Shown here: one piece after another, positions 25,857 through 63,641 of the stretch
How the letters are laid out: every line of letters starts with the position of its first letter
Numbering within the stretch: position 1 is the stretch's first letter
The notes under the pieces: generated by a model
Seen by the model: the letters and a program-made list of their open reading frames with translations, nothing else
Told to the model about the DNA's origin: nothing
The model's database searches: none
Position numbers and translations under genes: made by a program
Assembly (NCBI RefSeq): GCF_013283665.1
Contig: NZ_JABEKU010000003.1
Span: 441,806 to 505,805 of the forward strand
Direction of reading: 5' to 3'
Source of the DNA: Ensifer sesbaniae
GTDB taxonomy: Bacteria > Pseudomonadota > Alphaproteobacteria > Rhizobiales > Rhizobiaceae
Length of the DNA: 64,000 nucleotides

Positions 25857-27600
25857 CGATCCAGCCCCGAAGAGCGCTCACCATTTCCTGCAGTCCCTTG
25901 TGCGCGTCCTTAAGATGCGGGCCGAGGATCTTTTGCGCTATATGCTCCGCCTTCGCGATGTCCTTATACCAAGCTCCATGCAGGTCCTCGCTGTCCTTTT
26001 TCTTCTTCCCCTTTGCCCTAGCTGCCAAGGCGTCGAGAACGGTCGCGTCGCTCAGGCGGGCTCTGACCTGATCGATGGAAGTGAAGCGATCATCCGCTTG
26101 CCGGGGCTTGTTGGCCGCGTCGAGAATAGCTGTCGGTTCGAGGAAGGTGAGGGTGTAATCGAAGAGCATCTCGACGGCTGCCAGGGGCAGCTGGTGAAAC
26201 AGGACATCTTCCGTTGAGCAACCCTTATCCCAACGAAACACGGTGACACCGGCCTTTTCCAACTTGCCAAGAATCTCGGTGTCCGCAGGATCCTGATCGG
26301 AATCCAACAGCAAGCCCACCTGGTAGCCCAGGCCGCAGAACTGTCCCGCCAGCGCCGGGGCATTGTCGACCCCGCCCCCGTCAGCCAGCGCGATGCCCTT
26401 GAGAGCCAGGTTGTCGAGATGCTGGGCGACCCAATAATCATCCAGTCCCTTCAAGAGGCCGACTTCGGTCTTTCCCTCACATATCAGCACTGTGGGAGCC
26501 AGATATGCTTCAGGCATCGAACGAGGGGGCGCCTGGGGATCCCGCTTGCTATATTTCTTGTCGGCAGGCCGAACCGTCACCTTACCGTCCTCGGCGCGGC
26601 GGACGACATGCAGATCGTGAACACTCAGCTCGCGGATAACAATGGGCGAATGCGAAGTGATGAACACCTGAGGACTTACGCGGTCCTTCGACTTCAGGTG
26701 CTTGAGCAGGCGAACGATCCGGTGAGGCTCGAGCCCGTGCTCGACTTCGTCGATGATAGTCAGGCATAAGGACGCCTTGGAGTAATCCTGCAGGGCCGCG
26801 ACGAGTAGCCTTGACGACCCCATGCCCAACGCACGAAGGGGAACTTCCCCATCGTGAATGGCGACGCTTCCGTTTGTGATAGCGAGGTTTTGGACGTCCA
26901 GACCGGCAGCGATCGTACCCGGCAGTGCGAGGCCCACCTTCTTGGCAGCCAGCTTGACGCTCTCGAGGCTGCTTTTGAAGAGCGCCGCCGCCTCGGTCTT
27001 GAAATGATTGCGGGCAAGTCGGCCGGCACGGGCGAGAATGTCCTGGGTGGCCGCGGCTCCTTCGCTCATGCGGGCAAGTGTGGAATTCCGCCCCCAGCTC
27101 AGATGCCGGTCCGCATAGACACCCAAGCGAGCCGGGGCAACGCTTGCTCTGTGCGCATAAGTCAGCGAGCGCTCCTTCATGTCGCCCGCAGCAACACGCT
27201 CATTCCAAAGCGTCCACGTTCCCTCGAGGCCCTCATCAATGCTGAGCATGATTGATAAGGCATGTTGGCCCTTCTCGGGTAAAGGGGGTTCGTCGATGAC
27301 CTTTCCATCGTCAGAGATGCCCCTCAGATACGGAGCATACATCGCATCCGAAATGAATTCGTCCGGCAGGTCAGTTAAAGTCACAATGATTTTGGTGGCT
27401 TTATTGAACTCGCCTCCAAAGAAATCAAGATCGTCGAAGCTCAAGGTGTGGCGCGGTGAAAGCGCCAGTTCGACGGCATCCAAAATGGTAGTCTTACAGG
27501 AATCTCCCGGACCGATCAGACAATTTACCCCGGCTGCAGGTGCCCACCATAGTTGCTTTATCCCTCGGAAATTCTCAATTTCTACGTAGCCGACGCGCAT
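25843..27600 (-). CDS. gajA: OLD-family ATPase/TOPRIM nuclease, GajA-type Gabija component
   Basis: A 585-aa protein (GajA is about 578 aa). An ABC-type ATPase half carries VEIENFRGI, Walker A GPGDSCKT (30-37), Walker B LTIIDEVEHGLEP (280-292) and the ITSHSP switch (314-319). A C-terminal TOPRIM domain has LICEGKTE (Glu375) and LLDSDQD (Asp433/Asp435). The Walker A has Cys35 where the last Gly of G-x4-G-K-T is usual. GajA nicks DNA when nucleotides are depleted. It starts at ATG 27600; the upstream 350 bases hold its promoter. Confidence 0.82.
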   Translation of the reverse strand: MRVGYVEIENFRGIKQLWWAPAAGVNCLIGPGDSCKTTILDAVELALSPRHTLSFDDLDFFGGEFNKATKIIVTLTDLPDEFISDAMYAPYLRGISDDGKVIDEPPLPEKGQHALSIMLSIDEGLEGTWTLWNERVAAGDMKERSLTYAHRASVAPARLGVYADRHLSWGRNSTLARMSEGAAATQDILARAGRLARNHFKTEAAALFKSSLESVKLAAKKVGLALPGTIAAGLDVQNLAITNGSVAIHDGEVPLRALGMGSSRLLVAALQDYSKASLCLTIIDEVEHGLEPHRIVRLLKHLKSKDRVSPQVFITSHSPIVIRELSVHDLHVVRRAEDGKVTVRPADKKYSKRDPQAPPRSMPEAYLAPTVLICEGKTEVGLLKGLDDYWVAQHLDNLALKGIALADGGGVDNAPALAGQFCGLGYQVGLLLDSDQDPADTEILGKLEKAGVTVFRWDKGCSTEDVLFHQLPLAAVEMLFDYTLTFLEPTAILDAANKPRQADDRFTSIDQVRARLSDATVLDALAARAKGKKKKDSEDLHGAWYKDIAKAEHIAQKILGPHLKDAHKGLQEMVSALRGWIDGHS

Positions 27601-50159: not shown

Positions 50160-51182
50160 ATGGAGAAGGCGGCGCTTCGGATAATAGCCGGCAAGGATGT
50201 AAGCCCAAAGAGACAAACAAAGGCCGCTAGGCCAGCAGGCAGCAAGCCGAAGACAAAGGCCAATGCCGCGATGGCCCCGATGGTCATTGACGACGGTATT
50301 TTCGGGTCGCCGCTACTGCAACGGAAGGCGTACTACGCGGACGAGCACACCATCATCCTGAACATGGATGTTTCCGAAGCGCTCCGACTGTTGGCGCAGG
50401 CAGGAATGATGGTGAATTGCATCGTCACGTCACCGCCATTCTATGGACAGCGTGATTACGACGTTGACGGGCAGATCGGCCTTGAAGAACACCCGTCTTC
50501 GTTCATCGAAAAACTGGTCCAGACGTTCGACTCCTGCGATCCCATCCTCGCTCCGAACGGCAGTATGTGGGTCAATATCGGCGACACCTATTGGAGTGGC
50601 AAAGGCGAGCACAAGAGCGGCGAGGTAAAGCAGGGCGCACGCCGCTTTGGTCTCCGGCCTCAAGACAAGAAGGGCGACGGCAAGTGGTGCATCCCCAAGC
50701 AGTTGCTCTTGATACCGCACCGCTTTGCTATCGCGATGCAGGACAAGGGCTGGACCGTCCGCAATGACAACGTCTGGCTAAAGCCGAATCCCATTCCCGA
50801 TCAGGTGCGCGACCGGTGTTCTATGTCCCACGAGTACGTCTTTCATTTCGTGAAAGATCGTTGGTATTACTTCAACAAAGAACCGGTCGGCCGACCGACT
50901 GACTCCGGCTCGGTTCTGCCGCCGCTCGATACATGGGAAGTGCCCCCGGTGCGCGGCCTCCATAACGGTCACAAGGCGCGCTTCTCCGAAGAACTTGTTC
51001 GTATTCCGATCCTCGCGACCACGCCCTCCCGGGGCGTTGTCCTTGATCCCTTTGCCGGTAGCGGGACAAGTCTCGTTTTCGCGCGCAAGAACGGATTCCG
51101 CAGCATCGGTATCGATATCAAGAAGGACTTCTGCAAGATGATGGTCCAGAACCTTGAGAAGGTCGGGAGCGGAGCCGTATAG
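50160..51182 (+). CDS. Beta-class DNA methyltransferase (N6-adenine or N4-cytosine)
   Basis: A 340-aa site-specific DNA methyltransferase: motif IV TSPPF (90-94) precedes motif I DPFAGSGTS (296-304), the order of beta-class amino-methylases. The central region holds the target-recognition part (about 140-280). It is coupled to the McrB-like gene (TAGTG overlap at 51180-51184). It should modify host DNA against the downstream restriction complex. Specificity cannot be read from sequence. Confidence 0.87.
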   Translation: MEKAALRIIAGKDVSPKRQTKAARPAGSKPKTKANAAMAPMVIDDGIFGSPLLQRKAYYADEHTIILNMDVSEALRLLAQAGMMVNCIVTSPPFYGQRDYDVDGQIGLEEHPSSFIEKLVQTFDSCDPILAPNGSMWVNIGDTYWSGKGEHKSGEVKQGARRFGLRPQDKKGDGKWCIPKQLLLIPHRFAIAMQDKGWTVRNDNVWLKPNPIPDQVRDRCSMSHEYVFHFVKDRWYYFNKEPVGRPTDSGSVLPPLDTWEVPPVRGLHNGHKARFSEELVRIPILATTPSRGVVLDPFAGSGTSLVFARKNGFRSIGIDIKKDFCKMMVQNLEKVGSGAV

Positions 51183-53200
51183 TGGCGATATTTCTTTCGG
51201 CTAAAAGGATCGAACGGGCGATCAGCCAGTTGGGCGAGTCGCGCGCGAAGCGCACGCCGCTGTTTGATTTTATGATCGTCAAGCGGACAATGGCCATCAA
51301 AGGCGCGGCAAGCGTCGCCATTGCTGAGTCAGCGCCGGCCTTTATCCAAGCTCTTGAAGAAATCGGGGCTGCCGGACTTGGCAGGGACGATCACTACTAC
51401 TTCAATCCATTCGCATTGCGGGAAGCGGACAAGACCGGATATCGGCCGCGCCGTTACCGATCGAATGGCACGAACTCAACAATCTCCGGTACGCCCTGGC
51501 GGGATATCATCGTTCTGAGCAGTGACTCACCACGACAGGCAAGCCTGGCATCTGGCTACGATACCCACCTCGCGGCATTGGCGCTCACCGCTAACAAGGC
51601 AAAGTCCCTTCCGAACCTCACCGAGGCGGCGGTCTGGTACTGGCGGGGCCAGGACCTCGATAGCGTGCTGACGGGAATCTCCGACGCCGCCGGTCGCCTA
51701 AAGCGTGTTACCGACGAGTTTGTAGCACGCATCGGATTCACCGCTGCCGAGATTGCGGCCGTCTTCGACACGTCCATTGACGATAGCGCCACAGACGACG
51801 GCGGTCCCTTTGTGTCGAGCGCGCCAGCCCCGCAGGACTATCTCCCGGTAAAATCCTTGCCGGTCGGAGTTACCAAGGCGGAGAACCCCGCCGAGGTATC
51901 GTTCGCGCTTGTCACCGCGCTCGCAGCCAAAAATTTCGTCATCCTGACCGGCCCTTCCGGCACTGGCAAATCACGAGCAGCCCTGAAACTGGCCGAGGGC
52001 CTGCAGCGCCTCCATGCTGACGAGGTACAGGGCTCGATCTTCGAATTGATAGCAGTGGGGCCGGATTGGACCTCACCCAAGCGGCTACTGGGATTCCGAA
52101 CGCCCTTCGGGAAGGAGCGCAAACTACCAGACGGAACCACGACGCACGAAAGCTATGAGATCACCGACGCGATCCGCCTCATTCTTCGTGCGAGTCATTC
52201 GGATGCGGCCGATATACCGCATTTTCTGATCTTCGATGAGATGAACCTTTCCCATGTGGAGCGGTATTTTGCGCCTTTCCTGTCCCTTATGGAGGCGGCG
52301 AATATTCTCGATGCGGAAAGCGGCCTCTCTCTGATCGGCGGCGACGATCTGAAGCTGATCGCGGCCGTACTCGAAGCCGACAGTCCCGGAAGTAGGGAGT
52401 CGGAGGCGGCAACCGCGATGCTCAACGACGGGCGCGACTTCATCCTTCCGCCCAATCTGTTTTTCGTCGGCACGGTCAATGTCGACGAGACCACCTACAT
52501 GTTCTCACCGAAGGTTCTCGACCGTGCGCATGTGATCGAACTGAATGCCGAGCGGCCAAGCGCCTACCTTGGGGCTGCCACCCGCACGGAGCCCGGAGGG
52601 ATCGTTGCCATTGCTCAAGCCGATGTTGCGCTAAAGCGCGGGATCGATGCGCGCGAGAGTCAAAAATACGCCGTGGCCAATCCCGCGACCATCCTCGATT
52701 CCCTGACCGACACGGGGCTTACGGCAACAGAGATCGACACGATCCGCGCAGCTATGGTGACAGCGCTTGACGGTACTTACGATCTCGTTTCGCCGGTGGG
52801 CTTTGCATTCGGCTATCGCATCGCGAAGGAGGTTTTCATCTATGTGACGGAGTGGATGCTGACCAAGCACGCGGCCGGGGCCGACAAGGCCGCGTTGCTT
52901 AAGGCTTGGTACGACGCGCTCGACTACGCGGTCCTGCAAAAGGTTTTGCCGAAGATTCACGGAAACAGAAGGTCGCTCGGCGACAGTCTGCGCGCGCTTT
53001 CCGCCTTCTACGCAGGGAACGATTCAAACTCGACTCCAAGTGCCGGCTACACGTTGGGTCTCGGTACGAAAGTTGAGATACCGGCGGCGGGCAAGCTGGC
53101 GTTGGCGGGAACGGCAACGCAGCTTCCCTTATCTCGGCAGAAACTCGACACCATGCACGACCGCCTACAGGCGACCGGCTACGTGTCATTCGTAAGCTGA
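51182..53200 (+). CDS. McrB-like AAA+ NTPase (LlaJI.R1-like)
   Basis: A 672-aa AAA+ protein of the McrB class: Walker A TGPSGTGKS (256-264), Walker B FLIFDEMN (348-355) and the McrB-type sensor TVNVDETTYMFSPKVLDRA (431-449). The N-terminal 220 residues are a likely DNA-recognition domain without a known motif. McrB-type NTPases use GTP to translocate DNA to the nuclease subunit. GTG 51182 overlaps the methylase stop. Confidence 0.85.
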   Translation: MAIFLSAKRIERAISQLGESRAKRTPLFDFMIVKRTMAIKGAASVAIAESAPAFIQALEEIGAAGLGRDDHYYFNPFALREADKTGYRPRRYRSNGTNSTISGTPWRDIIVLSSDSPRQASLASGYDTHLAALALTANKAKSLPNLTEAAVWYWRGQDLDSVLTGISDAAGRLKRVTDEFVARIGFTAAEIAAVFDTSIDDSATDDGGPFVSSAPAPQDYLPVKSLPVGVTKAENPAEVSFALVTALAAKNFVILTGPSGTGKSRAALKLAEGLQRLHADEVQGSIFELIAVGPDWTSPKRLLGFRTPFGKERKLPDGTTTHESYEITDAIRLILRASHSDAADIPHFLIFDEMNLSHVERYFAPFLSLMEAANILDAESGLSLIGGDDLKLIAAVLEADSPGSRESEAATAMLNDGRDFILPPNLFFVGTVNVDETTYMFSPKVLDRAHVIELNAERPSAYLGAATRTEPGGIVAIAQADVALKRGIDARESQKYAVANPATILDSLTDTGLTATEIDTIRAAMVTALDGTYDLVSPVGFAFGYRIAKEVFIYVTEWMLTKHAAGADKAALLKAWYDALDYAVLQKVLPKIHGNRRSLGDSLRALSAFYAGNDSNSTPSAGYTLGLGTKVEIPAAGKLALAGTATQLPLSRQKLDTMHDRLQATGYVSFVS

Positions 53201-53204
53201 CAAC

Positions 53205-55166
53205 ATGGCTATTCCGCTCCACCGAGCGCGCTTCTCATGGGGGGCCAAGACCCACATCGACCTCGAATGGTCCAAGGGCAGCGGCAAACAGCTTCCCGTT
53301 CCGCCGCCGGCCCCGCAACTGGTCATGGCCGAGGAAGAAACCTCGCCGGACGAGCACACCGCGCGCGGAATCCCCGCACTATGCTGGCGCGAGAACAGTC
53401 CTGTTCTCTTTGAGCGATTCCAGCTGCGGGAGAACACCGAATATCTCGTCGATGTAACGCTGCCCAAGAGCCTCGCCGACCTGGAAAACGGCGCGCCGTA
53501 CCCGAAAGGTTGGCCGTTTAACGAACGGCTCGCAACCGTGTTTCGCATCGACCCGCCGAGACGATGGCGCGAGAATGCCGATGGCAGTACGACGATTTCC
53601 GGTCTTCTGCGCTTGCGGGGCCACGCCGGCATTCTCGACCTGAGCCTTGGTCACGATGCGCCCCTCATTGCCGAGGTTGTTTGTCGCAAACTCGGATATC
53701 TTGATGAGTTTCGCGCCCTCCTTGACGAGGTGGCGGAGGAATTTTCTGAACTCCTCCTTCAATGCGACAGTCCGGTCAGCGCGTCCTTCAATCTTTCCGA
53801 CGTAACGCCCGAAACTGAAGCGGCGCTCCTCTTCCAGATGCGACACATCATGACCGACCGCAATCTACCGGTCGCGCTTGATGAAATCAGGCGCTCCTTC
53901 CATACGCGGCTCGATCAATGGCGGGGGATCGAGGATATAAGCGCCGTCCAGGAGCCTGACGTTGTTGCCTTCATCGAGGAACTTGACGAGTCCGTGCTTG
54001 TAGAAGGCGGCCCCCTCGCGCGCCTCTTTCATGGCTACAGCCCGCGCGAGTTTCCAGTGCTCGAGACGTGTGAGACAGCCGACACGGTCGAGAACCGCTA
54101 TGTTAAATTCTTTCTCGAAGAATTGCTGCTTATCGCGCAGCGCCTAGCAGCGAGCCTGGCGCACAACCGAAGAACCGCTTCGCTCCGGGAGGTAGAGGGC
54201 TGGATTTTCGCCCTGGACGAAGAACTCGCTTCCGGGCAGTGGCGGCAGGTCGGAACGTTCCGCAATTTCCCTTCAAATTCGCAGGTACTTCAAAAGCGCC
54301 GCGGCTATCGTGAAATCCTGAAATTCGATCTGTCGCTCAGGATGAGCCTTGAACTGCCGTGGAAGCGTGCCGGACAGCTGGCCGATGGATTGATCGGCGA
54401 CCTCCGGCCGGTCAGCGAATTGTATGAGTATTGGTGCTTCTTTCTGTTGCGTCGTTCGCTGGCAGAACTCGCCGAGGCGGAACTGCCGGGCGACAGTTCA
54501 CTAATTGACGTTACCGAGGGGGGCTTGCAGGTCCGGCTCCTTCGCGGCAAGCGCAGTCGGGTCAGCTATCTTTACAAGCGGGATAGCACGAGCACCGTCA
54601 AGATGAACCTGTTCTACAATCGCGCCTTTCAGCGCCCGACGCGCAGTCTCTCCGCATGGCACGGAAGCTACACGGCCCGCTTCGACCCGGACTACAGCAT
54701 AGAGATCATCGTCCAAGGCGACGGTTTCCTTCATCGCCATTGGCTCCACTTCGACGCCAAGTACCGGCTGGACTCTGTTGACCTTGAGGCCGTTTCCGAG
54801 ACCGAAGACGCCGAGGATGATCTGGACGCCGACTATGAGGCCGAACTGGCGCGCGTCTATCGTCAGGACGACTTGTTCAAGATGCACACCTACCGGGACG
54901 GCATCATGAGCAGTCGCGGGGCCTACATACTTTTCCCCGGCGATAGCGCATCCCTCAGACTCACCGGACCGCGCAAGAACTTGTTCGTGCGACATCCATC
55001 CGCGTTTGATGGCAGCCCGGCCTACCTATTCCCCAGTGTCGGCGCGTTCGACCTTTGCCCCGGTCGCGACAACGGCCAGCGGCCCATTATTCAGGAATTT
55101 CTGAAAGGCATCCTCGACGCCGTATCTACGGGCAGACCCTACTACGAGGAGCAGGGGATGTTTTAA
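53205..55166 (+). CDS. McrC-like DUF2357/PD-(D/E)XK nuclease (LlaJI.R2-like)
   Basis: A 653-aa protein: an N-terminal DUF2357-type region and a C-terminal PD-(D/E)XK nuclease core: FDPDY (Pro495-Asp496), FDAKY (Asp517-Ala-Lys519) and DLFKMHTYRD (556-565), the McrC arrangement. It starts four bases after the McrB-like gene. McrC-type subunits provide the cleavage activity. A stand-alone type IV McrBC system would not need the cognate methylase, so a LlaJI-like modification-restriction system is favoured. Confidence 0.85.
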   Translation: MAIPLHRARFSWGAKTHIDLEWSKGSGKQLPVPPPAPQLVMAEEETSPDEHTARGIPALCWRENSPVLFERFQLRENTEYLVDVTLPKSLADLENGAPYPKGWPFNERLATVFRIDPPRRWRENADGSTTISGLLRLRGHAGILDLSLGHDAPLIAEVVCRKLGYLDEFRALLDEVAEEFSELLLQCDSPVSASFNLSDVTPETEAALLFQMRHIMTDRNLPVALDEIRRSFHTRLDQWRGIEDISAVQEPDVVAFIEELDESVLVEGGPLARLFHGYSPREFPVLETCETADTVENRYVKFFLEELLLIAQRLAASLAHNRRTASLREVEGWIFALDEELASGQWRQVGTFRNFPSNSQVLQKRRGYREILKFDLSLRMSLELPWKRAGQLADGLIGDLRPVSELYEYWCFFLLRRSLAELAEAELPGDSSLIDVTEGGLQVRLLRGKRSRVSYLYKRDSTSTVKMNLFYNRAFQRPTRSLSAWHGSYTARFDPDYSIEIIVQGDGFLHRHWLHFDAKYRLDSVDLEAVSETEDAEDDLDADYEAELARVYRQDDLFKMHTYRDGIMSSRGAYILFPGDSASLRLTGPRKNLFVRHPSAFDGSPAYLFPSVGAFDLCPGRDNGQRPIIQEFLKGILDAVSTGRPYYEEQGMF

Positions 55167-56156: not shown

Positions 56157-56312
56157 TCAAGCGTTGCGATTGATCCTGCCAAGTCTCAGGCCGTTTCCTT
56201 CACGGTTTTCACATTGGGAGCAGACGAGATGAGGGCGGAGAATGGCTATCGGCGTGTCGGCGCCATACTTCTTCGCGAGCTGCCATCGGTCAGGTCTCCG
56301 GCCGATGTTCAA
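56157..56312 (-). CDS. Small zinc-ribbon-like protein
   Basis: A 51-aa frame: DRWQLAKKYGADTPIAILRPHLVCSQCENREGNGLRLGRI, similar to short rhizobial proteins I recall with GADTPI...LRCSxCG. The TTG start at 56312 overlaps the end of the preceding gene. It lies eight bases upstream of the SRAP gene. The start is uncertain. Confidence 0.45.
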   Translation of the reverse strand: MNIGRRPDRWQLAKKYGADTPIAILRPHLVCSQCENREGNGLRLGRINRNA

Positions 56313-56496
56313 AACAGAACCATTTGGACGGGCCTTTGCCGATAGAGAAACCGAAGCCGCCCCATTTGGTGCATGTCGGGTGTTCGCAGAGATGGACCCA
56401 CGGACCGTCGGTTGTATCCTTTGTCGCGCCCTGTTCATCGCTCACGAGACGGTCTCCTCTCTGGCTCCGCCCAAAATTGGGGAGTTCGGACGCCAA
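56290..56496 (-). CDS. Small Cys/His protein of unknown function
   Basis: A 68-aa protein with CEHPTCTKWGGFGFSIGKGPSKWFCFEH: Cys and His residues that could bind one zinc. It is first of the three-gene operon ending in the SRAP gene. Family not recognised, but the pattern is plausible and hydrophilic. Confidence 0.5.
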   Translation of the reverse strand: MASELPNFGRSQRGDRLVSDEQGATKDTTDGPWVHLCEHPTCTKWGGFGFSIGKGPSKWFCFEHRPET

Positions 56497-56534
56497 TGAT
56501 TGTTCTCTGTTTGTTCTTATATTATTTCAATCTC

Positions 56535-56801
56535 ATGGTCGAGACAATTGGCGAAGCTTTCAGCCTGGGATGGCGACTTAAGGCGCGCTGCGCATACGGT
56601 AAGCGCGAGGGCCTGAAGTCGATTCGCGAGTGCACGTGGACCTATGATCTCGACATGCTGACGCTCGTCACCACTCGCGGCCGGGACTTTCCGCTTGCTA
56701 TGCTCGCGTCTCGGCTCCGCTGTCCACGCTGCGGATCGCGTCTGGTTTCGGTGGTGTTCATTCCCCCGGCTGACGGGGATCTGAGAAGGGGCGCGGCCTA
56801 A
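56535..56801 (+). CDS. Small zinc-ribbon protein
   Basis: An 88-aa protein: IGEAFSLGWRLKARCAYGKREGLKSIRECTWTYDLDMLTLVTTRG..FPLAMLASRLRCPRCGSRLVSVVFIPP. The CxxC pair at the end indicates a zinc-ribbon. ATG 56535 is chosen. Such genes accompany SRAP and LigD genes in rhizobia. Function unknown. Confidence 0.62.
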   Translation: MVETIGEAFSLGWRLKARCAYGKREGLKSIRECTWTYDLDMLTLVTTRGRDFPLAMLASRLRCPRCGSRLVSVVFIPPADGDLRRGAA

Positions 56802-56804
56802 ACT

Positions 56805-56996
56805 TCAATGAAGTGGTGAGGATTTCGCCTTGCGGATGATCGCGCCGGCGGCCTCTTCGAACATCCTGTCTGTGGCCTCGAGGGCGAACCAGTGATTATG
56901 CGCCAGTTCGATCAAAGCGTCGGCGACCTCTCGCTCAGTCCAGCCGGCCGCCTCGGCGCAGTCGGCCACCGATCTGAAGGCGAATTCGATCGCCAT
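56805..56996 (-). CDS. Small protein of unknown function
   Basis: A 63-aa, helical, acidic protein (MAIEFAFRSVADCAEAAGWTEREVADALIELAHNHW). It converges with the zinc-ribbon gene. I recall homologues beside DNA-repair genes in rhizobia; no function is known. Confidence 0.55.
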   Translation of the reverse strand: MAIEFAFRSVADCAEAAGWTEREVADALIELAHNHWFALEATDRMFEEAAGAIIRKAKSSPLH

Positions 56997-57093
56997 CTGG
57001 CAATCCAGATCGCGATCGGGATACGCGCTAACGCGCTTTGGTGATGGAAAGATCCAGCTTAGACGTTTTTGCTGTTTCGTGCGTTAATGCGAG

Positions 57094-58071
57094 ATGGCTA
57101 AAACAGCGAAGAAGACACCGCCTCCCGCGCCGCCGGCCGATCCTATGCCGCGCCGCGTCGATCCCTGTGTTGCAACCCTCGTCGACAAGCCGCCGAAAGG
57201 TCCGGAGTGGGCCTTTGAGGTGAAGTGGGATGGCTACCGGCTGGCGGTCCATGTCGAGCCAGGCGAGGTGAGGGTGATTACGCGTGGCGGCTACGACTGG
57301 ACCAAGAAGTTCGGCTCGATCGTCGCTGAGGCGCGCCAGCTCGGGCACGCGTCCATGATCATCGACGGCGAGGCGGTCGTTCTGGATGAGCAGGGCCGGT
57401 CAGATTTCGGGCTGCTGCAGCGCGCGGTCGGCAAGAAACCGAGCTTACACGAGCCGAGTGAGATAATTTTCTATGCCTTCGATCTCCTCTATCTCGACGG
57501 CCACGATTTGCGGTCGCGGCCGTTGGCGGAGCGCCGGCGCAGGCTCGAGCCGATCGTCGCCGGCAGGGCTGGCGCGATTCGCTTCTCGGAGGAGGTGCAC
57601 GCCGACGGCGCCGAGTTCTTTCGCGCCGCGTGCGAGCTCGGGCTAGAGGGCATCATCGCCAAACGCAGGGACGCACCATATCGATCGGACCGCCGCCCGG
57701 AATGGCTCAAGATCAAATGCGCTCGGCGCGATACCTTTGTGATCGTCGGCTATGAGCCTTCGACCATGCCACGAGCGATCGGCCGATTGCTGCTCGCGGC
57801 GAAAAAGGGGAACGGCCTCGTCTATGTGGGCGGTTGTGGGACCGGTTGGAGCAACGAGGAAGCGGTAGAGCTTCGTGAACTGCTCGAGGCGATCCCCGCG
57901 ACGCGGCCACCGGTGACGCTGAAACGAAAGGGCGCCGTCTTCTCCGAGCCGCTGCTTGTCGCCGAGGTGGAGTATCGAGCCTGGACGCAGGACGGAAAGC
58001 TTCGGCACCCATCGTTCAAGGGCGTCAAGAAACGGGCGCGCAAGGTGAAGGTGTATTCTCTGGACAAGTAG
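57094..58071 (+). CDS. ligD: ATP-dependent DNA ligase (LigD ligase-domain type)
   Basis: A 325-aa ATP-dependent ligase. The nucleotidylation motif is EVKWDGYR (Lys44), followed by DGEAVVLDEQG, FYAFDLLYLDG, EGIIAKR and EWLKIK; the OB domain follows from about 220. The polymerase and nuclease domains of full LigD are absent, so it is the stand-alone (LigC-like) form. It seals DNA breaks, often with Ku, which is not in the window. Start at ATG 57094. Confidence 0.9.
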   Translation: MAKTAKKTPPPAPPADPMPRRVDPCVATLVDKPPKGPEWAFEVKWDGYRLAVHVEPGEVRVITRGGYDWTKKFGSIVAEARQLGHASMIIDGEAVVLDEQGRSDFGLLQRAVGKKPSLHEPSEIIFYAFDLLYLDGHDLRSRPLAERRRRLEPIVAGRAGAIRFSEEVHADGAEFFRAACELGLEGIIAKRRDAPYRSDRRPEWLKIKCARRDTFVIVGYEPSTMPRAIGRLLLAAKKGNGLVYVGGCGTGWSNEEAVELRELLEAIPATRPPVTLKRKGAVFSEPLLVAEVEYRAWTQDGKLRHPSFKGVKKRARKVKVYSLDK

Positions 58072-58157
58072 ACGACGCACCCGCCGCAAGCGACGGCGCT
58101 GCAAACCGTAGCAGGCGCGACCGAAGCCTGCGCTGCCACGGTCTGCTGCCGCATTGG

Positions 58158-58949
58158 TCATTGACCTTCAACGTACTCCTCATTGTTCCACAATGCTTGT
58201 TCATCCGCTGGGTGGATGTCGATCGGCGAAGCGCTGCAACCCGGGCAGTGCCAAAGGTTCTTGGCGATCTGCGTCCCGGTAAATATCTCATCGCAATGAA
58301 AGCAGAACCACCGATTGGAAAGGGAGCCGAATAGAGGGTGTTGAACGCCCCCATTGGCATCAGGCACTGTTGATCGACGGGGCCAGTCGGAAGCAATTCG
58401 GGCGCGCACCTGCTCGGCCCGAATTTGGGAGACCCTGAGCGCCTTTTCGACGAACCCCTGATCCAGAATCGGGTTCGACTTGATCCGCCTATCGGTCACA
58501 CTGGCTTCCGCGGTCGCGGACGGTGCCTCGGGAACGACGATCCGCCAGCCGCGCCCGTCCATGAACACATCGTCACAGTCGACACTAAGGCGGAATTTGT
58601 GACCGTCGAGCACGCCGAAGATCTCGTCTGCCGACAAGGGATCGGCGTCATCTCTTGGTATCGACGCAACTATCGTGGTACCCGGGACGGAGCAAAGTGC
58701 GTCCAAACCGGCGGTGCCAGATTCCTTGGATTTTAGAGGGTTCACCGTGTCGACGATCTCTTTCATTGCTTCAATCTGGGTCGAACTCGGTCGCCACCCC
58801 TTCTTGTAAGCCACCGTCAGGGCATTCCAATGTGGATATCCCATCTGCTGGGCGGTCACTTCGAGAGCACTGAACTGCTTGATACGTCGCGCACGCGCGA
58901 GCTTCTTGGCGAGACTTTTGATGAAGTCGAGGGATTCTGTCGTTGTCAT
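58158..58949 (-). CDS. Protein with glyoxalase-related N-terminus and zinc ribbon
   Basis: A 263-aa protein. The N-terminal 60 residues (DFIKSLAKKLARARRIKQFSALEVTAQQMGYPHWNALTVAY) match the short glyoxalase-related/antitoxin-like domain I recall as Glyoxalase_8. A central beta-rich part follows. The C-terminus has CFHCDEIF...CPGCSA, a zinc-ribbon. Function unknown; a regulatory or stress role is possible. Confidence 0.65.
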   Translation of the reverse strand: MTTTESLDFIKSLAKKLARARRIKQFSALEVTAQQMGYPHWNALTVAYKKGWRPSSTQIEAMKEIVDTVNPLKSKESGTAGLDALCSVPGTTIVASIPRDDADPLSADEIFGVLDGHKFRLSVDCDDVFMDGRGWRIVVPEAPSATAEASVTDRRIKSNPILDQGFVEKALRVSQIRAEQVRARIASDWPRRSTVPDANGGVQHPLFGSLSNRWFCFHCDEIFTGTQIAKNLWHCPGCSASPIDIHPADEQALWNNEEYVEGQ

Positions 58950-59288
58950 GATCCATTCCTGACAGTAACGGATCCGACTATGTGCCCACTGCTAATCAAA
59001 TCCGCCCAATCGGGAACGGTTCAAAGCTGCCAGGATAATCGCACTGCCACGAGCTTTGCATGGTGGGCACACCGGCCTGTGCGTAGAGACCGCAACCAAT
59101 GTGGCGAACAACGAATGTGACGTCAAGTCGATGACCATTCAGATATTTACTCTGGTGTCGACTCGTGCCTCATGATGTCATCATCAAGAGCTCGGTCAGA
59201 ATGGCTCTGATTCTCGCTTTAGCCCGGCCTCGGCATCATTTCTGTCACCCGATAACGGAGTATGCACGCTAATGTTAAGAGGGCTTGA
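58950..59288. other. Gene-free stretch
   Basis: 340 bases with no supported gene. It should include the promoter of the gene starting at 58949 (minus). A TGATGTCATCATCA near-palindrome occurs around 59174. Confidence 0.35.
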
Positions 59289-59617
59289 ATGAGCATTTCG
59301 AAGCGTATCCTGTTCGAAGGCGATCCCGCTGATGATGCAGCACGGGCTTTGATCAAAGACGCGAGCAGACCATCAGTGAATATCGATTCAAAATCCCCTT
59401 GCGCCGGAAAAATCGGCTAGGTGCAGGTGTCAAGTGGGATCCGATCTGGCCCAACAGCGTCAAGCAAGCGGCCAACGAGCTTAATATCGAATTTATTCAG
59501 GTGAACGATCAAGCTCGCACCCGAACTCGTGAAGAGGCCGACAAGGTGAGCAAATTGGCGGAGAGTATCTGGAACCAGGAACACGAGCAGTTCGCGATTC
59601 TAGTTGGCGACCAGTGA
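59289..59617 (+). pseudogene. Small gene, possibly frameshifted
   Basis: Two overlapping frames look like parts of one gene: 59289-59420 (MSISKRILFEGDPADDAARALI, ATG behind AGAGGG) and a second frame that supplies SEYRFKIPLRRKNRLGAGVKWDPIWPNSVKQAANELNIEFIQVNDQ to 59617. The join would need a frameshift near 59370. The second half alone is 72 aa from a TTG at 59399. Family not recognised. Confidence 0.35.
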
Positions 59618-59744
59618 ATCACCTCGATGCCGATCGAGGAGATCAGGACCGGGCCTGGAGTTGTCGCTAGATCATGTCCTATACGGGGTCGAGCTGGCTT
59701 CAACGATGTCTGAGTAGTCGTGCTGTGGCAAAAAGAATAGACGA

Positions 59745-60527
59745 TCACAATCCTTGCAGGGCCAATTCATCGAGCATCGCGCGACCAAATTCATCGATCG
59801 TCATATAGTCGGCGATCAGTTGTGGGTGGAAGACTGCCCGAGGCGATTTTTCGGTTACTGAATGCGTCATCCATGGCCGCCAAAGTCCTAGGGCTTTCTG
59901 AGCCGCTTGCAATTCTTCATAGGCATGGACATGTAGATTGCGCAACGCTTCGGCCGACTGCACCTCAAGCTTGTTGTAGCTGTCGATTGCCTCAGGCGTG
60001 ACGATGTATGGCGGTATGTACAGAGGGATCCGATGAGCAAGGCTGTCTCGAAAGCCCTTAAGGTGCTGATCGACCCAATTCTGGCGGCTTTCAAGATGGG
60101 CGACAAATTTCTGACTGAATGACGCGCGCACCTCTTTGCTTTTGGGACCAAGGCCCACCTTCAACGGGTCCAGCTCCTTTCCGTCCTTTAATACCGGTTT
60201 CTCGCAAACCCAGATCCAGGCGAGGTTATCGAGACAACCAAAGGCGTTCATCACAAACGACTGGATTGCGATCGTCGCCTCGAGAACGGTGTCTTTTGCC
60301 GGAATCTGTTCAAGCTCTGGAGGAAGTTTCTCGAAGATTAGATCTACCGCATGAGCCATGGTTCCGAGGCGACGGGAAAATCCATGGTAGGCAAATTCCC
60401 GACCACGCTCTGACTTATAGGTGCGGGTGAGAAACTGTTCACGCAGGGAGGCGAACCGCTGGCGCATGTCCTTTTGGCCGGCGTAAAGCTCATCGATAGC
60501 TTCTTTGCTGAAGTATCCCGCCATCAA
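59745..60527 (-). CDS. HEPN-like protein, last gene of putative defence operon
   Basis: A 260-aa mostly helical protein. R160-DSLA-H165 fits the HEPN ribonuclease motif R-x4-H inside GFRDSLAHRIPLYIPP. An aromatic-rich helical region (QSFVMNAFGCLDNLAWIWV) precedes it, as in other HEPN-like unknowns. ATG 60527 overlaps the preceding small gene by four bases. It is the last of four coupled genes. Function by homology is unknown to me; the HEPN call is from motif and helical content. Confidence 0.6.
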   Translation of the reverse strand: MMAGYFSKEAIDELYAGQKDMRQRFASLREQFLTRTYKSERGREFAYHGFSRRLGTMAHAVDLIFEKLPPELEQIPAKDTVLEATIAIQSFVMNAFGCLDNLAWIWVCEKPVLKDGKELDPLKVGLGPKSKEVRASFSQKFVAHLESRQNWVDQHLKGFRDSLAHRIPLYIPPYIVTPEAIDSYNKLEVQSAEALRNLHVHAYEELQAAQKALGLWRPWMTHSVTEKSPRAVFHPQLIADYMTIDEFGRAMLDELALQGL

Positions 60528-60727
60528 TCAAACAGCCCATAGTAGAGATTCCACAATCGGCTGCTCCGTGGCTCTGCCGTCCGCAAACAATCGACTGTCC
60601 GAGGATTCGCCGGATCGATCTGACAAAGACTGGTTACGAGTGCATATCTCTGACGTTCGACCTCAGCCAGCCGCCACCCAGACCAGCCCAATGCGACTAC
60701 GAGCAGGACAATAATGCTATTTCTCAT
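60524..60727 (-). CDS. Small membrane-anchored protein in HEPN operon
   Basis: A 67-aa protein with one N-terminal hydrophobic helix (SIIVLLVVALGWSGWRLAEVE) and a short extracytoplasmic tail with two Cys (about 35 and 48). It overlaps both neighbours by four bases. A membrane partner of the HEPN-like proteins is possible. Confidence 0.55.
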   Translation of the reverse strand: MRNSIIVLLVVALGWSGWRLAEVERQRYALVTSLCQIDPANPRTVDCLRTAEPRSSRLWNLYYGLFD

Positions 60728-61197
60728 GCTCTACCTTCGAAGAAGAAATTGACGTCGGGTTCCCATTCCGCCGCCAAAAGCAGGACCGCTATGGTCTCGG
60801 CGACGAGCGCCGCGTCTCGCTTAGGCTCACTGTCAAAGTACTTTCCGCCATGGAAAAGGTTGTTACGAACCCGTCGTACCGCACCGAATAGATCTTGGGT
60901 CGAAACGGGTATAGCCGCCTTGGCGGCAAAACCCCACGCCCCTGACTGATCTATCACCTCAGGTTTCGGAGGGTCACTCAATATGGTCGGGCAGAGTTGA
61001 CTGTCTCTGACATGTTTAAGAAACTTTGTCCCAATATGCTTGCTGTTGGCAAAGCTGTCCCACGTTATCTCGACGCTGCCCTTAACATCGCGACAATAGC
61101 GAGCCATTTTTAAAGCAAGTTCAAATCGCGCAAAGATTCTAAATAGCTCGTCGCTTCGTGGTGGCAAATTATTGGCGGCCGTTAGATCAACCGTCAT
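60724..61197 (-). CDS. HEPN-domain protein
   Basis: A 157-aa helical protein with R111-NNLF-H116-GG, a typical HEPN R-N-x-x-x-H active-site motif (RxxRNNLFHGGK). HEPN proteins cut RNA in many toxin-antitoxin and abortive-infection systems. It is second in the operon, coupled by four-base overlaps on both sides. Confidence 0.7.
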   Translation of the reverse strand: MTVDLTAANNLPPRSDELFRIFARFELALKMARYCRDVKGSVEITWDSFANSKHIGTKFLKHVRDSQLCPTILSDPPKPEVIDQSGAWGFAAKAAIPVSTQDLFGAVRRVRNNLFHGGKYFDSEPKRDAALVAETIAVLLLAAEWEPDVNFFFEGRA

Positions 61198-61952
61198 GAC
61201 GGCTTCTTCTCCAGATGGGTCTCGACAAGGAAGGTTGCGACGGCGCCAGCAGTATTCACGGCCAAACTCGCATGGCGCGGGGATGGTTTCACGGGCTTGC
61301 CGCCGCGACCATGCGAATCCGACAGACGATTTCGAAGCGTGCCGATACCGTTCACGAGATTCATAGCGCCGCCGAGAATGGCCTTGATCGGCTCTTCTGA
61401 ATGCTGGTTAGGCGCGAGATTCAGTGCTTTTGCGGCCATTCCGTAGAGCTTCGGAAGATCCTCAGTGTCCGCATAGGTGATACCCCGTTCGTCGAGGATG
61501 CGCTTGCACACTGTCTCGAGCAGCGTCCTGGCTATGGTAATAGCGCCCTCCGGATCAGTGGACCGGCGGGCAAGCGCCTTGGTCCATACGGAGTGAACGC
61601 TCTCTGTATCGAACGATACAAGTGCATCAGAGACAACGGTGTCACCTGGAGCTCGGCCTTTGCCCTCAAGGTAGTCAAATAGGGGCCGAAAGCCTTCTGC
61701 GATAAGCTCACGCCGCGGCTGCCACTGCGGCGACTGCTTCTGCGTCCACGATCGAAACGTACTGAGATTGCGATGCGAACGCACGAAGGGTGGGAGCAGA
61801 TTCTTCAACTCTTCGTCGTACATGAATTCGCGCCGAAGATGCTCATAGATACGATTATCTGGAGAACCATCCGTCGCGGCAGCCGTCATGATGCTTTCCA
61901 ACATTGTTGCTCGCTCAATGGGGCTGTCAGGCAATTCGTCTTCGTAAAACAT
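61194..61952 (-). CDS. Abi_C-type abortive-infection protein
   Basis: A 252-aa protein. The C-terminal half fits the abortive-infection Abi_C family: AITIARTLLETVCKRILDERGI, LYGMAAKALNLAPNQH, ILGGAMNLVNGIGTLRNRLSDSHGRG, HASLAVNTAGAVATFLVETH. Arg209-x4-His214 within RNRLSDSHG is the HEPN-like motif. The N-terminal part (PPFVRSHRNLSTFRSW) is unknown. First gene of the four-gene operon; its promoter lies in 61953-62078, shared with the divergent recombinase. Confidence 0.75.
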   Translation of the reverse strand: MFYEDELPDSPIERATMLESIMTAAATDGSPDNRIYEHLRREFMYDEELKNLLPPFVRSHRNLSTFRSWTQKQSPQWQPRRELIAEGFRPLFDYLEGKGRAPGDTVVSDALVSFDTESVHSVWTKALARRSTDPEGAITIARTLLETVCKRILDERGITYADTEDLPKLYGMAAKALNLAPNQHSEEPIKAILGGAMNLVNGIGTLRNRLSDSHGRGGKPVKPSPRHASLAVNTAGAVATFLVETHLEKKPS

Positions 61953-62078
61953 TGGCGACCTGGTTCAATTAAGTGGCTCACGATAGCATAGCGCATTAGG
62001 ATTGCTACTTTCAATTTTGAGCTAGGCGCGTAAACTAGGCTCAGTGAAGTATACTCTATTTGGCCATGAGGAGCGGAA
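61953..62078. promoter_or_regulatory. Divergent promoter region, HEPN operon and recombinase
   Basis: 126 bases between divergent start codons, A/T-rich (GTATACTCTATTT near 62047-62060). A serine-recombinase site would be expected beside its gene, but I cannot define crossover repeats. Confidence 0.4.
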
Positions 62079-62696
62079 ATGCGTATCGCCCGGGTTTATC
62101 TGCGTGTGAGTACGCAAGGGCAGGATCTCGAACGGCAGGAATCAATCATCGACCAGGCGAAGCAAGCAGGTTATTACGTCGCCGCAGTCTACCGGGAAAA
62201 AGCGTCAGGCGCTCGGGCCGACCGGCCGGAGCTGCTGCGCTTGGTCGCCGATCTTCAGCCCGGCGAGGTGGTGATTGCCGAAAAGATCGACCGCATAAGC
62301 CGCCTGCCATTGCCCGAAGCCGAAAAGCTGGTCGCGACGATCCGGAAGAAGGGTGCCCGTCTCGCCGTACCCGGGGTTGTCGACCTCAGCGATCTGGCCG
62401 CCGGCGCCGACGGCGTTGCCAAGATCGTGCTCGAGTCGGTCCAGGAGATGCTTTTGAAACTGGCGCTGCAAATGGCTCGAGACGATTTCGAGAATCGGCG
62501 CGAACGCCAGCGGCAAGGCATCGATTTGGCGAAGTCGGGCGGCAAGTACGTCGGCCGACAGGCCGACACCGCAACCCATGAGCGGATCATCGCTTTAAGA
62601 TCAGGCGGCAATAGCATCGCTCGAACTGCAAAGTTGGCGGGATGCAGCGTGTCGCAGGTAAAGCGAATTTGGGCTGAACATCAGCGCTCTAAATAG
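62079..62696 (+). CDS. Serine recombinase (resolvase/invertase family)
   Basis: A 205-aa small serine recombinase: RVYLRVSTQGQDLERQ with catalytic Ser11, GARADRPELLRLVADLQPGEVVIAEKIDRISR, and a C-terminal helix-turn-helix (ARTAKLAGCSVSQVKRIWAEH). Such enzymes resolve plasmid multimers or mobile-element cointegrates. It lies between two defence-type modules, as expected in a mobile cargo region. Confidence 0.9.
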   Translation: MRIARVYLRVSTQGQDLERQESIIDQAKQAGYYVAAVYREKASGARADRPELLRLVADLQPGEVVIAEKIDRISRLPLPEAEKLVATIRKKGARLAVPGVVDLSDLAAGADGVAKIVLESVQEMLLKLALQMARDDFENRRERQRQGIDLAKSGGKYVGRQADTATHERIIALRSGGNSIARTAKLAGCSVSQVKRIWAEHQRSK

Positions 62697-62954
62697 AGAC
62701 CCGCGGGGGCACAATATCAATGTCGATACGATCTCCCCTTGAATTGGCCATTTTCGCAGCTTCTCGCCATCAGTCTGTGATCTATTGGTTCTGAGGGTTC
62801 CGGCTCTCGGCTCAGCGATCCGGACGGTGACGAGGCTGGGGTAACTTGGAAATAGCCCTGGCCTCCCTCCCCGTCACCAATCTCTCCCTGTAGTTGAATA
62901 TTACACCAGCGCTTCCTACATTTTGAGTGGCTGAACTAAGGGGAGGGGCTATTG
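62697..62954. other. Upstream region of the PRTase/DprA pair
   Basis: 258 bases without a supported gene. TTGAATATT at 62894-62902 may be part of a promoter. No hairpin stands out. Confidence 0.35.
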
Positions 62955-63641
62955 ATGATTTATTACAACATGGTCGCTGGATGGATGGGCTTTCCGCACC
63001 TGAGCGTTTCTAACGGCGTGACGCATTCTTATGCGATAGCCTACAAGCTGAAAGACAAGACAAGCGAGAAGTGGACCGCCCGCTTCATTCGCTTCAAGGA
63101 TAAAATCAACAAGGCTGAGTGGGGAGCGTCCACAGTTCTCTATGAGGCTGTCCCTGATCTCATCAAGCATCTAGGCGTCGATCCCAAGCGCACCGTGTTC
63201 ATCCCGGCACTTTCATCCGGTGAAACCAAGGCAGACCCAAACCGGGCAATCCCATGGATCGCGAAGGAATGCGCGAGAATATGCGGTGCCCAATATAACG
63301 ACACAGCACTTTCTAAGAATGTCCACCAGAAGATTCATACCATCTATTCAGCAGAAGGCAGAACCGCAGAGCTGGATAAAGCCAAATATCAGTCCGCTAA
63401 AATAGATGCGGATCATGTCTTCGTTTTCGATGACTTCATTACGCGCGGTGATACACTGTCGCGCATCGCTCTAGCGGTGCTTGCGACAAATCCAAAGTGC
63501 AAGGTCTACGGGATTGCTCTGGCGAAGGCTGAAAGTGTTGACTACTGCCCCAATCCAGACAACGACCAAGTTCCTGCCAGATGGGATAATCTCTGGAGCC
63601 AGGGCGAGCAGGAGCACGACGCAAAATTCAAGAAGGGCTAG
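62955..63641 (+). CDS. Phosphoribosyltransferase-like protein of a DprA-linked pair
   Basis: A 228-aa PRTase-fold protein. The PRPP-binding loop is VFVFDDFITRGDTLSRIA (Asp159/Asp160), matching the V-x-x-x-D-D-x-x-T-x-G-x-T-L pattern. It has no ComF zinc ribbon. ATG 62955 follows GGGGAGGGG. The dprA gene starts four bases after its stop. I recall DprA plus phosphoribosyltransferase pairs being listed as predicted defence systems. Confidence 0.75.
   Translation: MIYYNMVAGWMGFPHLSVSNGVTHSYAIAYKLKDKTSEKWTARFIRFKDKINKAEWGASTVLYEAVPDLIKHLGVDPKRTVFIPALSSGETKADPNRAIPWIAKECARICGAQYNDTALSKNVHQKIHTIYSAEGRTAELDKAKYQSAKIDADHVFVFDDFITRGDTLSRIALAVLATNPKCKVYGIALAKAESVDYCPNPDNDQVPARWDNLWSQGEQEHDAKFKKG

Follow-up and report, generated by a model that had tools for sequence, protein, structure and literature searches.

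Four overlapping genes on a rhizobial plasmid of Ensifer sesbaniae: a probable stack of HEPN-type abortive-infection genes

Gene organization of the operon

The window analysed in this study is a stretch of 64,000 nucleotides from Ensifer sesbaniae (contig NZ_JABEKU010000003.1, positions 441,806 to 505,805). Within the window, four overlapping genes, as given in a preliminary description of this DNA, lie on the minus strand between positions 59745 and 61952. The first gene, g1 (61194..61952), encodes an AbiJ/Abi_C-type protein of 252 aa, recognized by Pfam Abi_C, PADLOC AbiJ and phrog_23253, and the second, g2 (60724..61197), encodes a small candidate HEPN-like protein of 157 aa, for which the basis is phrog_19013, a 28-row alignment and a structure model. 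The third gene, g3 (60524..60727), codes for a small plasmid protein of 67 aa, known from its plasmid relatives; it carries a single hydrophobic helix at the N-terminus, in agreement with its previous designation as a one-helix membrane protein. The last gene, g4 (59745..60524), encodes a protein of 259 aa from a candidate HEPN-like family, characterized by an invariant R159-x4-H164 and a helical model. A serine recombinase gene (62079..62696, plus strand; Pfam Resolvase, 4.6e-21) is located outside the operon and is divergent from g1. A gene of the recombinase family is also found at about 0.6 kb or nearer to g1-type genes at two other loci (L019 and L020) and to an AbiJ_NTD5-Abi_C gene of Azospirillum (L192).

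Two of the three ATGA overlaps described earlier are present (61194-61197 and 60724-60727), but the junction between g3 and g4 is TGATG, in which the stop codon TGA and the start codon ATG have one base in common (60524). If g4 started instead at the alternative TTG at 60527, the g3/g4 overlap would be TTGA. Promoter-like sites numbered 3 against 1.9 expected, and no terminator-like site was detected. With all three junctions overlapping, g1 to g4 are probably co-expressed, and interdependence between them could have arisen here.

Conserved residues and predicted folds of g1, g2 and g4

All three larger proteins had been described as HEPN-type on account of an R-x4-H motif, and the motif is indeed present in g1, g2 and g4, although that of g1 (RLSDSH) is not the conserved one. 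The bare motif is little above chance and constitutes weak evidence, because it occurs in 18 of the 45 six-frame open reading frames of 150-300 aa within the window (spurious frames included) and in 21-43% of shuffled sequences (43% for g1, 21% for g2 and 43% for g4). At the sequence level, the real evidence that raises R-x4-H above chance is residue conservation, with R111 of g2 invariant in 28 rows and R159 of g4 invariant in 83 rows. Since the scans demanded part of the motif, residues N112-K119 of g2 and A163-P171 of g4 (genome scans; R159-P167 in the viral g4 scan) are invariant by construction, while R111, E26 and K30 of g2, R159 of g4 (72 genome rows) and the motif residues of g1 lie outside the search patterns. 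The alignments leave out 8 of 90 g4 loci because of stops, unread bases or their length. Of the 31 g2 loci, 4 were discarded, 3 that tblastn did not recover and 1 for its length; of the 36 g1 loci, 5 were discarded for stops or length, and 6 near-identical ones were removed by hand.

The Abi_C likeness of g1 was confirmed by Pfam Abi_C (PF14355; 4.8e-23, 81.5 bits against a cut-off of 24, residues 167-243) and by PADLOC AbiJ (6.1e-22); the match to phrog_23253 reached 3.6e-71. The proposed motif RLSDSH, however, starts at the variable R209. The invariant residues in 26 rows are R207, N208, D212 and H214, giving R-x6-H, that is, R207-N208-x5-H214, which is described as a less typical HEPN spacing in PMC3710099. 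A second motif, E146-x3-K150, is also conserved. The N-terminal part of about 150 aa gave no AbiJ_NTD model of Pfam at E<=1. The domains AbiJ-NTD1 to 5 are optional at the N-terminus, and the family includes versions that have none. When the g1 profile was compared with the PDB, nothing was retrieved beyond a designed protein (0.044) and a single unrelated chain. The predicted HEPN nature of g1 is solid on these domain matches and motifs.

The g2 protein matches phrog_19013 at 4.1e-14 over nearly its full length, a family that carries no assigned function in PHROGs. Two motifs were identified, E26-x3-K30 and R111-N-N-L-F-H116-G-G-K, in which E26, K30 and R111 are invariant in the 28 rows; R111-N112-x3-H116 is of the R-x4-6-H type with a polar residue after the arginine. 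In the fold search with the structure model (pLDDT 88), Csm6 (Z 3.5 and 3.3), HepS (2.7) and AbiV (2.3) appeared among unrelated rows of up to 4.5, and Foldseek returned no match at E<=0.001. The g2 profile gave a weak match to a CRISPR-associated protein (E 0.015). No Pfam HEPN model was above its cut-off for g2, DUF4145 reaching 12.9 bits against 23.1; among the 28 members, HEPN_Swt1, HEPN_Apea and DUF4145 were each matched by one member (E 0.077-0.12), alongside unrelated families at 0.13-0.35. On motif conservation g2 is likely to be a HEPN protein, the HEPN reading of phrog_19013 being our own.

For g4, no model was above threshold in Pfam, PADLOC, NCBIfam or PHROG, and the only Pfam match of the window protein was HepT-like (E 0.14, under the cut-off). 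Of its four R-x4-H sites, R159/H164 alone is invariant in the alignment (83/83 rows), and it is placed at the end of helix 148-164 in the structure model (pLDDT 97). The second motif E-x3-[KR], which many but not all HEPN families have, was not found as an invariant pair in the g4 alignment; D/E99, N100 and R51-R52 are conserved instead. The model superposes on the HEPN chain 4nqf_B (Z 8.6, 132 residues, rmsd 3.4) and on HepT 6m6u_H (Z 8.5, 129 residues of the 131-residue chain, rmsd 3.5), but a higher score was obtained with rhodopsin (Z 9.4, 183 residues, rmsd 4.3). Foldseek gave no match at E<=0.001 in PDB or BFVD, and the sequence profile gave none in the PDB. When ten distant relatives were compared singly with Pfam, one (L094) matched HEPN_Cthe2314 at 1.3e-5, with 25.7 bits against a cut-off of 27.1, and 4 of the 83 members matched HEPN_Apea, at best with 0.0088, in a set of 41 weakly matching families of which most were unrelated. 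Thus g4 is likely a HEPN protein by its conserved motif, with helical bundles such as rhodopsin outscoring HEPN in the fold search. The fold matches do not settle the class of g2 or g4, and the claim of three HEPN-type proteins now stands as solid for g1 and likely for the other two. Profile-profile comparison among the g1, g2 and g4 families gave no relation, and common ancestry of the three therefore lacks support.

Distribution and neighborhoods of the four genes

All four genes together were detected only in the near-identical plasmid pSF83666d of S. fredii CCBAU 83666 (97.4% over 6.4 kb), and among 16 genomes of the genus the operon DNA was present only in the window's own. Outside this plasmid lineage, for loci flanked on either side by over 2.5 kb (some duplicate or near-identical ones included), we counted those in which a second gene of the set lay no more than 2.5 kb away: none of 27 for g2, one of 26 for g1 (a g3-like gene only) and one of 77 for g4 (g3 only). 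The conserved co-occurrence expected from the preliminary description is thus not observed, leaving its proposal of one phage-triggered toxic complex unsupported. Looser associations include g2 and g4 relatives 2.7 kb apart in Blastomonas (L014), a g3-like gene after the AbiJ_NTD5-Abi_C gene of Azospirillum (L192), and, in Amylibacter (L051), a g4 relative after which, beyond some unread bases, comes a protein of 441 aa whose Abi_C end resembles g1. A gene caller used in the analysis is naive and picks antisense frames. The g2 relative of L014 also has a restriction-type neighbor, for which a relation to AbiJ was considered; the comparison showed none. On six other plasmids, g1-type genes occur with no g2, g3 or g4 relative in the stretch examined.

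The only members that recur together are g3 and g4, in two S. meliloti plasmids, one of S. meliloti GR4 and a second in which the two genes are likewise adjacent. GR4 keeps g3-g4 with 77% DNA identity over 59742-60594 and the same TGATG junction; g1-g2 are absent from the 10.8 kb examined, and a DUF4238 gene is located upstream of the pair. Relatives of g3 were found on plasmids of S. meliloti, Azospirillum and Polaromonas, as well as in one other genome, and two of them (L192 and L193) have no g4 relative nearby. A same-strand open reading frame with a hydrophobic segment (Kyte-Doolittle mean >=1.6 over 19 residues, rather than a trained predictor) ends within 10 bp of g4 at 8 of 100 g4 loci (L010, L015, L034, L035, L036, L072, L095 and L109), and the GR4 locus scored 1.58 against the threshold of 1.6. 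In L109 g4 is broken and the partner frame may be spurious. Except among L034, L035, L036 and L072, the upstream partners of g4 showed no sequence relation at E 0.01.

The neighborhoods of g2 relatives are diverse. One relative (62%, L030) starts 1 bp after a Gabija GajA-GajB pair, another comes after a PDC-S71 helicase, and others sit between prophage tail-type genes, as judged by eye from known family features. In a P4-like element of E. coli, a g2 relative (L196) lies between the integrase gene and the gene for polarity suppression, adjoining a DEAD helicase and a HamA protein; this interval of P4-like elements is described as a hotspot of anti-phage systems (PMC9122126). PADLOC was applied to 105 of 120 neighbors of g2, selected from 123 candidates by manual removal of near-duplicates; the most frequent match was HamB, in 3. 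For g4 neighbors (139 of 191 candidates), 198 families were matched, the 25 listed being in one member each, and no recurrent defence family was seen among those listed.

Among 199 genomes of the order, the window's own genome counted, the window g2 was found in 5, g3 in 2 and g4 in 4; a viral-based g2 profile, poor for alphaproteobacterial relatives, found 2 of 385 genomes of the class, again with that genome included. By record title, g4 relatives occur in several bacterial phyla. Scans of viral contigs with single sequences of g1, g2 and g4 gave nothing, and alignment scans gave 36 g1, 31 g2 and 10 g4 loci. Against the phage collection, the window g2 had no match, a viral g2 relative matched 4 records and a viral g4 relative 1 record.

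Interpretation and comparison with known defence systems

We consider it probable that the four genes form a local stack of HEPN-type abortive-infection genes, each acting independently, that is carried by a conjugative rhizobial plasmid; because their relatives occur separately in other bacteria, separate defence modules are indicated rather than one four-part machine. Context and what AbiJ is known to do both speak for a defence role; PADLOC gave no match for g2, g3 or g4. Separately mobile defence genes would have been brought together and joined by translational coupling. The g1 protein may be an abortive-infection factor of AbiJ/Abi_C type that consists of one protein: its N-terminal half would recognize a phage product or keep the enzyme inactive, and the HEPN dimer formed by the C-terminal part would then cleave RNA and arrest growth. 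Growth arrest by RNA cleavage has been proposed as the action of AbiJ-type proteins and demonstrated for Tha, a HEPN system made of one protein. The g2 product would be a small protein of HEPN type that frequently has no dedicated partner and enters many different neighborhoods, and g3-g4 would be a two-gene unit that pairs a small membrane protein with a second HEPN-type protein of larger size. Most simply, we infer, g3 would serve g4 as a tether or switch at the membrane. Each module would work alone, and co-transcription may give additive or broader protection against phages.

Among the alternatives, two appear unlikely. In one, the sole true multi-gene system is g3-g4, as a pair of membrane protein and HEPN protein like HEPN-TM, with g1 and g2 as unrelated upstream cargo. 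The pair and its junction are kept in GR4, hydrophobic partners adjoin g4 at the eight loci above, and HEPN-TM is a named system (PMC11087260), but most g4 loci examined are devoid of such a partner, g3 relatives also occur away from g4, and the upstream partners are mostly unrelated in sequence. The other holds that g2, g4 or both are helical proteins with a structural R/H motif instead of HEPN nucleases. The empty Foldseek results for both, a g4 bundle that fits HEPN no better than it fits rhodopsin and receptors, the unrelated profiles of the three families and the unrelated Pfam families at similar E-values are all in its favor; against it stand the invariant R and H at a helix end, the E-x3-K of g2, and the weak Pfam matches that several members have to HEPN families of different kinds.

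More speculative, and distinctly improbable, is that g4 represents a HEPN RNase family not described before, for which interchangeable membrane proteins could act as tether or gate. RNA cleavage would then be triggered by envelope damage or entry, not by an internal phage product, and on this plasmid g4 would be coupled with two further HEPN effectors into a layered RNase response from a single transcript. The membrane protein would be g3 here and, elsewhere, one of several unrelated proteins that have between one and three hydrophobic segments. Still more doubtful is a toxin-antitoxin device for plasmid maintenance, in which a coupled small gene restrains a HEPN toxin as the nucleotidyltransferase does in HEPN-MNT pairs. 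It agrees with the overlapping genes and the plasmid location, and single g4 relatives adjoin nucleotidyltransferase-type genes (L058 by motif, L017 annotated AbiEii), as a g2 relative comes after an AbiEii-like gene (L003, by eye); however, Pfam detected no nucleotidyltransferase among g1-g4, and a motif scan was positive near only 1 of 105 g4, 0 of 50 g2 and 0 of 50 g1 loci. The least credible is a single four-component system, as initially proposed, with g1, g2 and g4 as HEPN subunits, g3 as the anchor and RNase activity freed by phage infection. One operon with three overlapping junctions does combine three HEPN-type proteins with a membrane protein, and a g4 relative is beside an Abi_C protein in L051, but co-occurrence is not conserved, GR4 keeps g3-g4 with no adjoining g1-g2, and g2 relatives lie between phage tail-type genes in the absence of the other members.

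Under the stack of separate modules that we prefer, what was tempting to regard as a new multi-subunit system becomes testable gene by gene. The occurrence of g2 relatives by Hachiman-type genes in the E. coli P4-like element and after Gabija makes g2 testable in E. coli with coliphages. Two HEPN-like families, g2 and g4, are without an assigned function in the searched libraries, and if both are RNases, catalogues of defence genes miss two effectors.

Several known systems offer points of comparison. Tha is described as a single-protein HEPN defence of S. aureus prophages (301 aa), carried on mobile elements, with an unnamed N-terminal part, a C-terminal HEPN domain and tail proteins as the trigger (PMC11087260); likened by this description and not by sequence, it is a model for the possible action of g1 and g4, although the motif of g4 is away from its C-terminal end. 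HEPN-TM, as named in the same source, combines a HEPN protein with a membrane protein as g3-g4 does, a likeness in gene arrangement only, with the HEPN nature of g4 as a candidate. The g4 model superposes on HepT of the HEPN-MNT (MntA-HepT) system (129 residues, rmsd 3.5, Z 8.5), but the nucleotidyltransferase located there beside the HEPN gene has no counterpart among g1-g4. Relatives of g2 are found directly after GajB of Gabija (L030) and beside the DEAD helicase and HamA protein of Hachiman (L196), whereas other g2 copies occur without either system; g2 is not known to be a component of Gabija or Hachiman as described. From the AbiJ family (PF14355), g1 differs in its N-terminal half, with no AbiJ_NTD match at E<=1, but resembles it in the C-terminal HEPN domain, which is above the curated cut-off and carries both R-x6-H and E-x3-K.

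Gene arrangement and plasmid setting

The four genes g1 (61194-61952), g2 (60724-61197), g3 (60524-60727) and g4 (59745-60524) are numbered as they are transcribed and together occupy 61952 to 59745 of the minus strand. An ATGA overlap is common to g1/g2 and g2/g3, as in the preliminary description; the third ATGA proposed there, at g3/g4, reads TGATG, the overlap being a single base.

The window is placed at 441806-505805 of a 515-kb contig, and its nearest plasmid relatives come from Sinorhizobium. The region 56288-62676 is 97.4% identical to pSF83666d, a 76.8-kb plasmid of S. fredii CCBAU 83666 typed as conjugative, which also matches 96% of window 1-24000 at 88% identity, and on these two matches the operon region is, by sequence, plasmid-like. 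A run of N directly precedes the first base of the window, and window 1-55 is repeated exactly at the contig end (G000:C3:515306-515360). Because of this N run and the 55-base end repeat, contig positions 441806-515360 look like a separate circular plasmid of about 73.5 kb, akin to pSF83666d, that was scaffolded onto a larger replicon.

Several further genes were noted in the window. Close to g1-g4, 62952-63641 (plus strand) encodes a phosphoribosyltransferase-like protein (PADLOC ShosT, 8.8e-9). Consecutive genes at 50160-55166 (plus strand) encode a DNA methylase (N6_N4_Mtase), a 672-aa protein that Pfam does not match at E 1e-4, and a DUF2357/PDDEXK_7 nuclease; they probably form a restriction-type system carried by the same plasmid. 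At 24438-27600 (minus strand), a 585-aa AAA_15/AAA_21 ATPase is followed by an overlapping 472-aa ORF; this could be a Gabija-like pair. The pSF83666d counterpart of 57094-58071 (plus strand) is annotated as NHEJ DNA ligase LigD, and in Bradyrhizobium (L013) a g4 relative likewise has a ligD as its neighbour.

Distribution of the four genes

Among the genomes compared, the complete g1-g4 set was found in just two places, the window's own genome and pSF83666d. The set is not conserved; the combination is new to us, but local. S. meliloti GR4, which has other parts of the same plasmid backbone in common with the window, keeps g3-g4 (77% DNA identity over 59742-60594) with the identical TGATG junction; g1 and g2 are absent from the stretch compared, and a DUF4238 gene lies upstream of g3-g4. 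When loci with more than 2.5 kb of sequence on both sides were counted, with the window lineage excluded, another member of the set was found within 2.5 kb at 1 of 26 g1 loci and 1 of 77 g4 loci, and at none of the 27 g2 loci. The g1 case is an Azospirillum g3-like gene beside an Abi_C gene with AbiJ_NTD5, and the g4 case is GR4. Outside this count, a g4 relative (L051) is followed, across unread bases, by a 441-aa protein that ends in an Abi_C part like that of g1, and at L014 the g2 and g4 relatives are separated by 2.7 kb. Six other plasmids carry g1-type genes without g2, g3 or g4 relatives, two of them with a recombinase family gene within about 0.6 kb, and an alignment scan found g1-type genes on 36 viral contigs.

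The g3 product (67 aa, a single hydrophobic helix) has relatives at 57% in GR4 and on a second S. meliloti plasmid, at 38% in Azospirillum oryzae, at 29% (E 0.04) on a Polaromonas plasmid and at 38% in one further genome. From these relatives, g3 is also found apart from g4, and it looks like a plasmid small-protein family rather than a dedicated subunit.

AbiJ-type and HEPN-like products

By its matches to Pfam Abi_C (4.8e-23), PADLOC AbiJ (6.1e-22) and phrog_23253, which covers it nearly end to end (3.6e-71), g1 is assigned as a new AbiJ member. Its invariant residues in 26 aligned rows are E146, K150, R207, N208, D212 and H214. PMC3710099 counts AbiJ among six abortive-infection systems with a primary component that defines a HEPN-domain group. 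Two features given there for HEPN domains, an R-to-H spacing of six residues and an E-x3-[KR] element, are present in g1. The motif RLSDSH named previously has R209 as its first residue, which varies, being K in one relative (L021).

The libraries searched assign no function to the families of g2 and g4, both of them HEPN-like. The 157-aa g2 product matches phrog_19013 (4.1e-14), a PHROG of unknown function; its Pfam match to DUF4145, at 0.12, is below the cut-off. In all 28 aligned rows E26, K30, R111, N112, H116, G117 and K119 stay the same, those of N112-K119 by construction since this stretch is in the scan pattern. The predicted structure, a confident one (pLDDT 88), places R111 within helix 100-115, and a g2 profile aligned with CRISPR-associated proteins among PDB sequences (0.015-0.025) through the RN-HGG stretch.

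For g4 (259 aa), no match above cut-off was obtained in Pfam, PADLOC, NCBIfam or PHROGs. Its relatives came from 88 stretches of the genome collection, 80 of them kept; going by record titles, many are alphaproteobacterial and some belong to other phyla. All 83 aligned rows have the R of R159 and the H of H164, with A163-P171 (R159-P167 in the viral scan) invariant by construction, and both residues lie in helix 148-164 of the very confident predicted structure (pLDDT 97). In VIA-align, 4nqf (Z 8.6, 132 of 151 residues) and HepT (Z 8.5, 129 of 131) resemble the model, HEPN structures having the smallest rmsd among the rows listed; helical bundles such as rhodopsin score up to Z 9.4, and by the tool's own warning bundles below about Z 13 may have only arrangement in common. 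One relative (L094) matches HEPN_Cthe2314 just under the cut-off over residues 68-162, spanning its R-x4-H at 151-156, and HEPN_Apea matches weakly in 4 of 83 members, alongside many unrelated weak families. Because of the invariant R159 and H164, the model and its scores against those of bundles, the near-match and the weak HEPN_Apea matches, g4 is likely, but not proven, to be HEPN; for both predicted models, g2 and g4, the fold evidence alone is inconclusive.

The defence neighbours of g2 and g4 relatives are given as plain occurrences, without a claim of enrichment. In R. leguminosarum Ta9k, where a Gabija pair is present (GajA 7.7e-301, GajB 3.3e-237), the g2 relative begins 1 bp past GajB, in Tp73_4 it is downstream of a PDC-S71 helicase, and in Blastomonas it touches a gene reading, by eye, like a restriction-type nuclease. 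On several viral contigs the relatives are flanked by tail-type genes (by eye), and in phage vB_EcoM-611R5 a baseplate_J gene follows a few genes later. In E. coli, a g2 relative is present in 20 of 5426 genomes at an identity of at least 99%; in strain 190 (L196, 4501-8577) it lies between the integrase and phage polarity suppression genes of a P4-like element, adjoined by a convergent DEAD helicase and HamA pair. PMC9122126 describes an anti-phage system hotspot in P4 satellites, the psu-int interval, with HEPN domains among the finds.

No recurrent partner was found among the families listed beside g4 relatives. At 8 of 100 g4 loci, one of them doubtful, an ORF on the same strand that contains a hydrophobic segment ends no more than 10 bp from the g4 relative; the upstream ORF of GR4 scores slightly below the cut-off for such a segment. 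Nucleotidyltransferase-type genes adjoin two g4 relatives. At L034, L035, L036 and L072, a protein of 237-276 aa with two hydrophobic segments (82-95% alike across the four), a membrane partner other than g3, ends 5-6 bp before the g4 relative. Upstream of a distant g4 relative, the gene at L149 5031-5879 has an R-N-x3-D-H-like end by eye, and its product may be a HEPN protein too.

Modules and known systems

We favour the reading of g1-g4 as a stack of modules able to act alone. We infer RNase activity, triggers and protection for these genes. The small g2, for which a partner is often not evident, would act as a HEPN effector on its own. According to PMC11087260, Tha is a single HEPN protein, a non-specific RNase activated by phage tail proteins, and it is the nearest experimental model for g1 and, more loosely, for g4. 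By analogy, one part of g1 (more loosely of g4) would sense, the HEPN dimer would cut RNA and the infected cell would stop. The arrangement of g3 beside g4 resembles HEPN-TM, named in the same paper, and by this comparison g3 may tether or gate g4.
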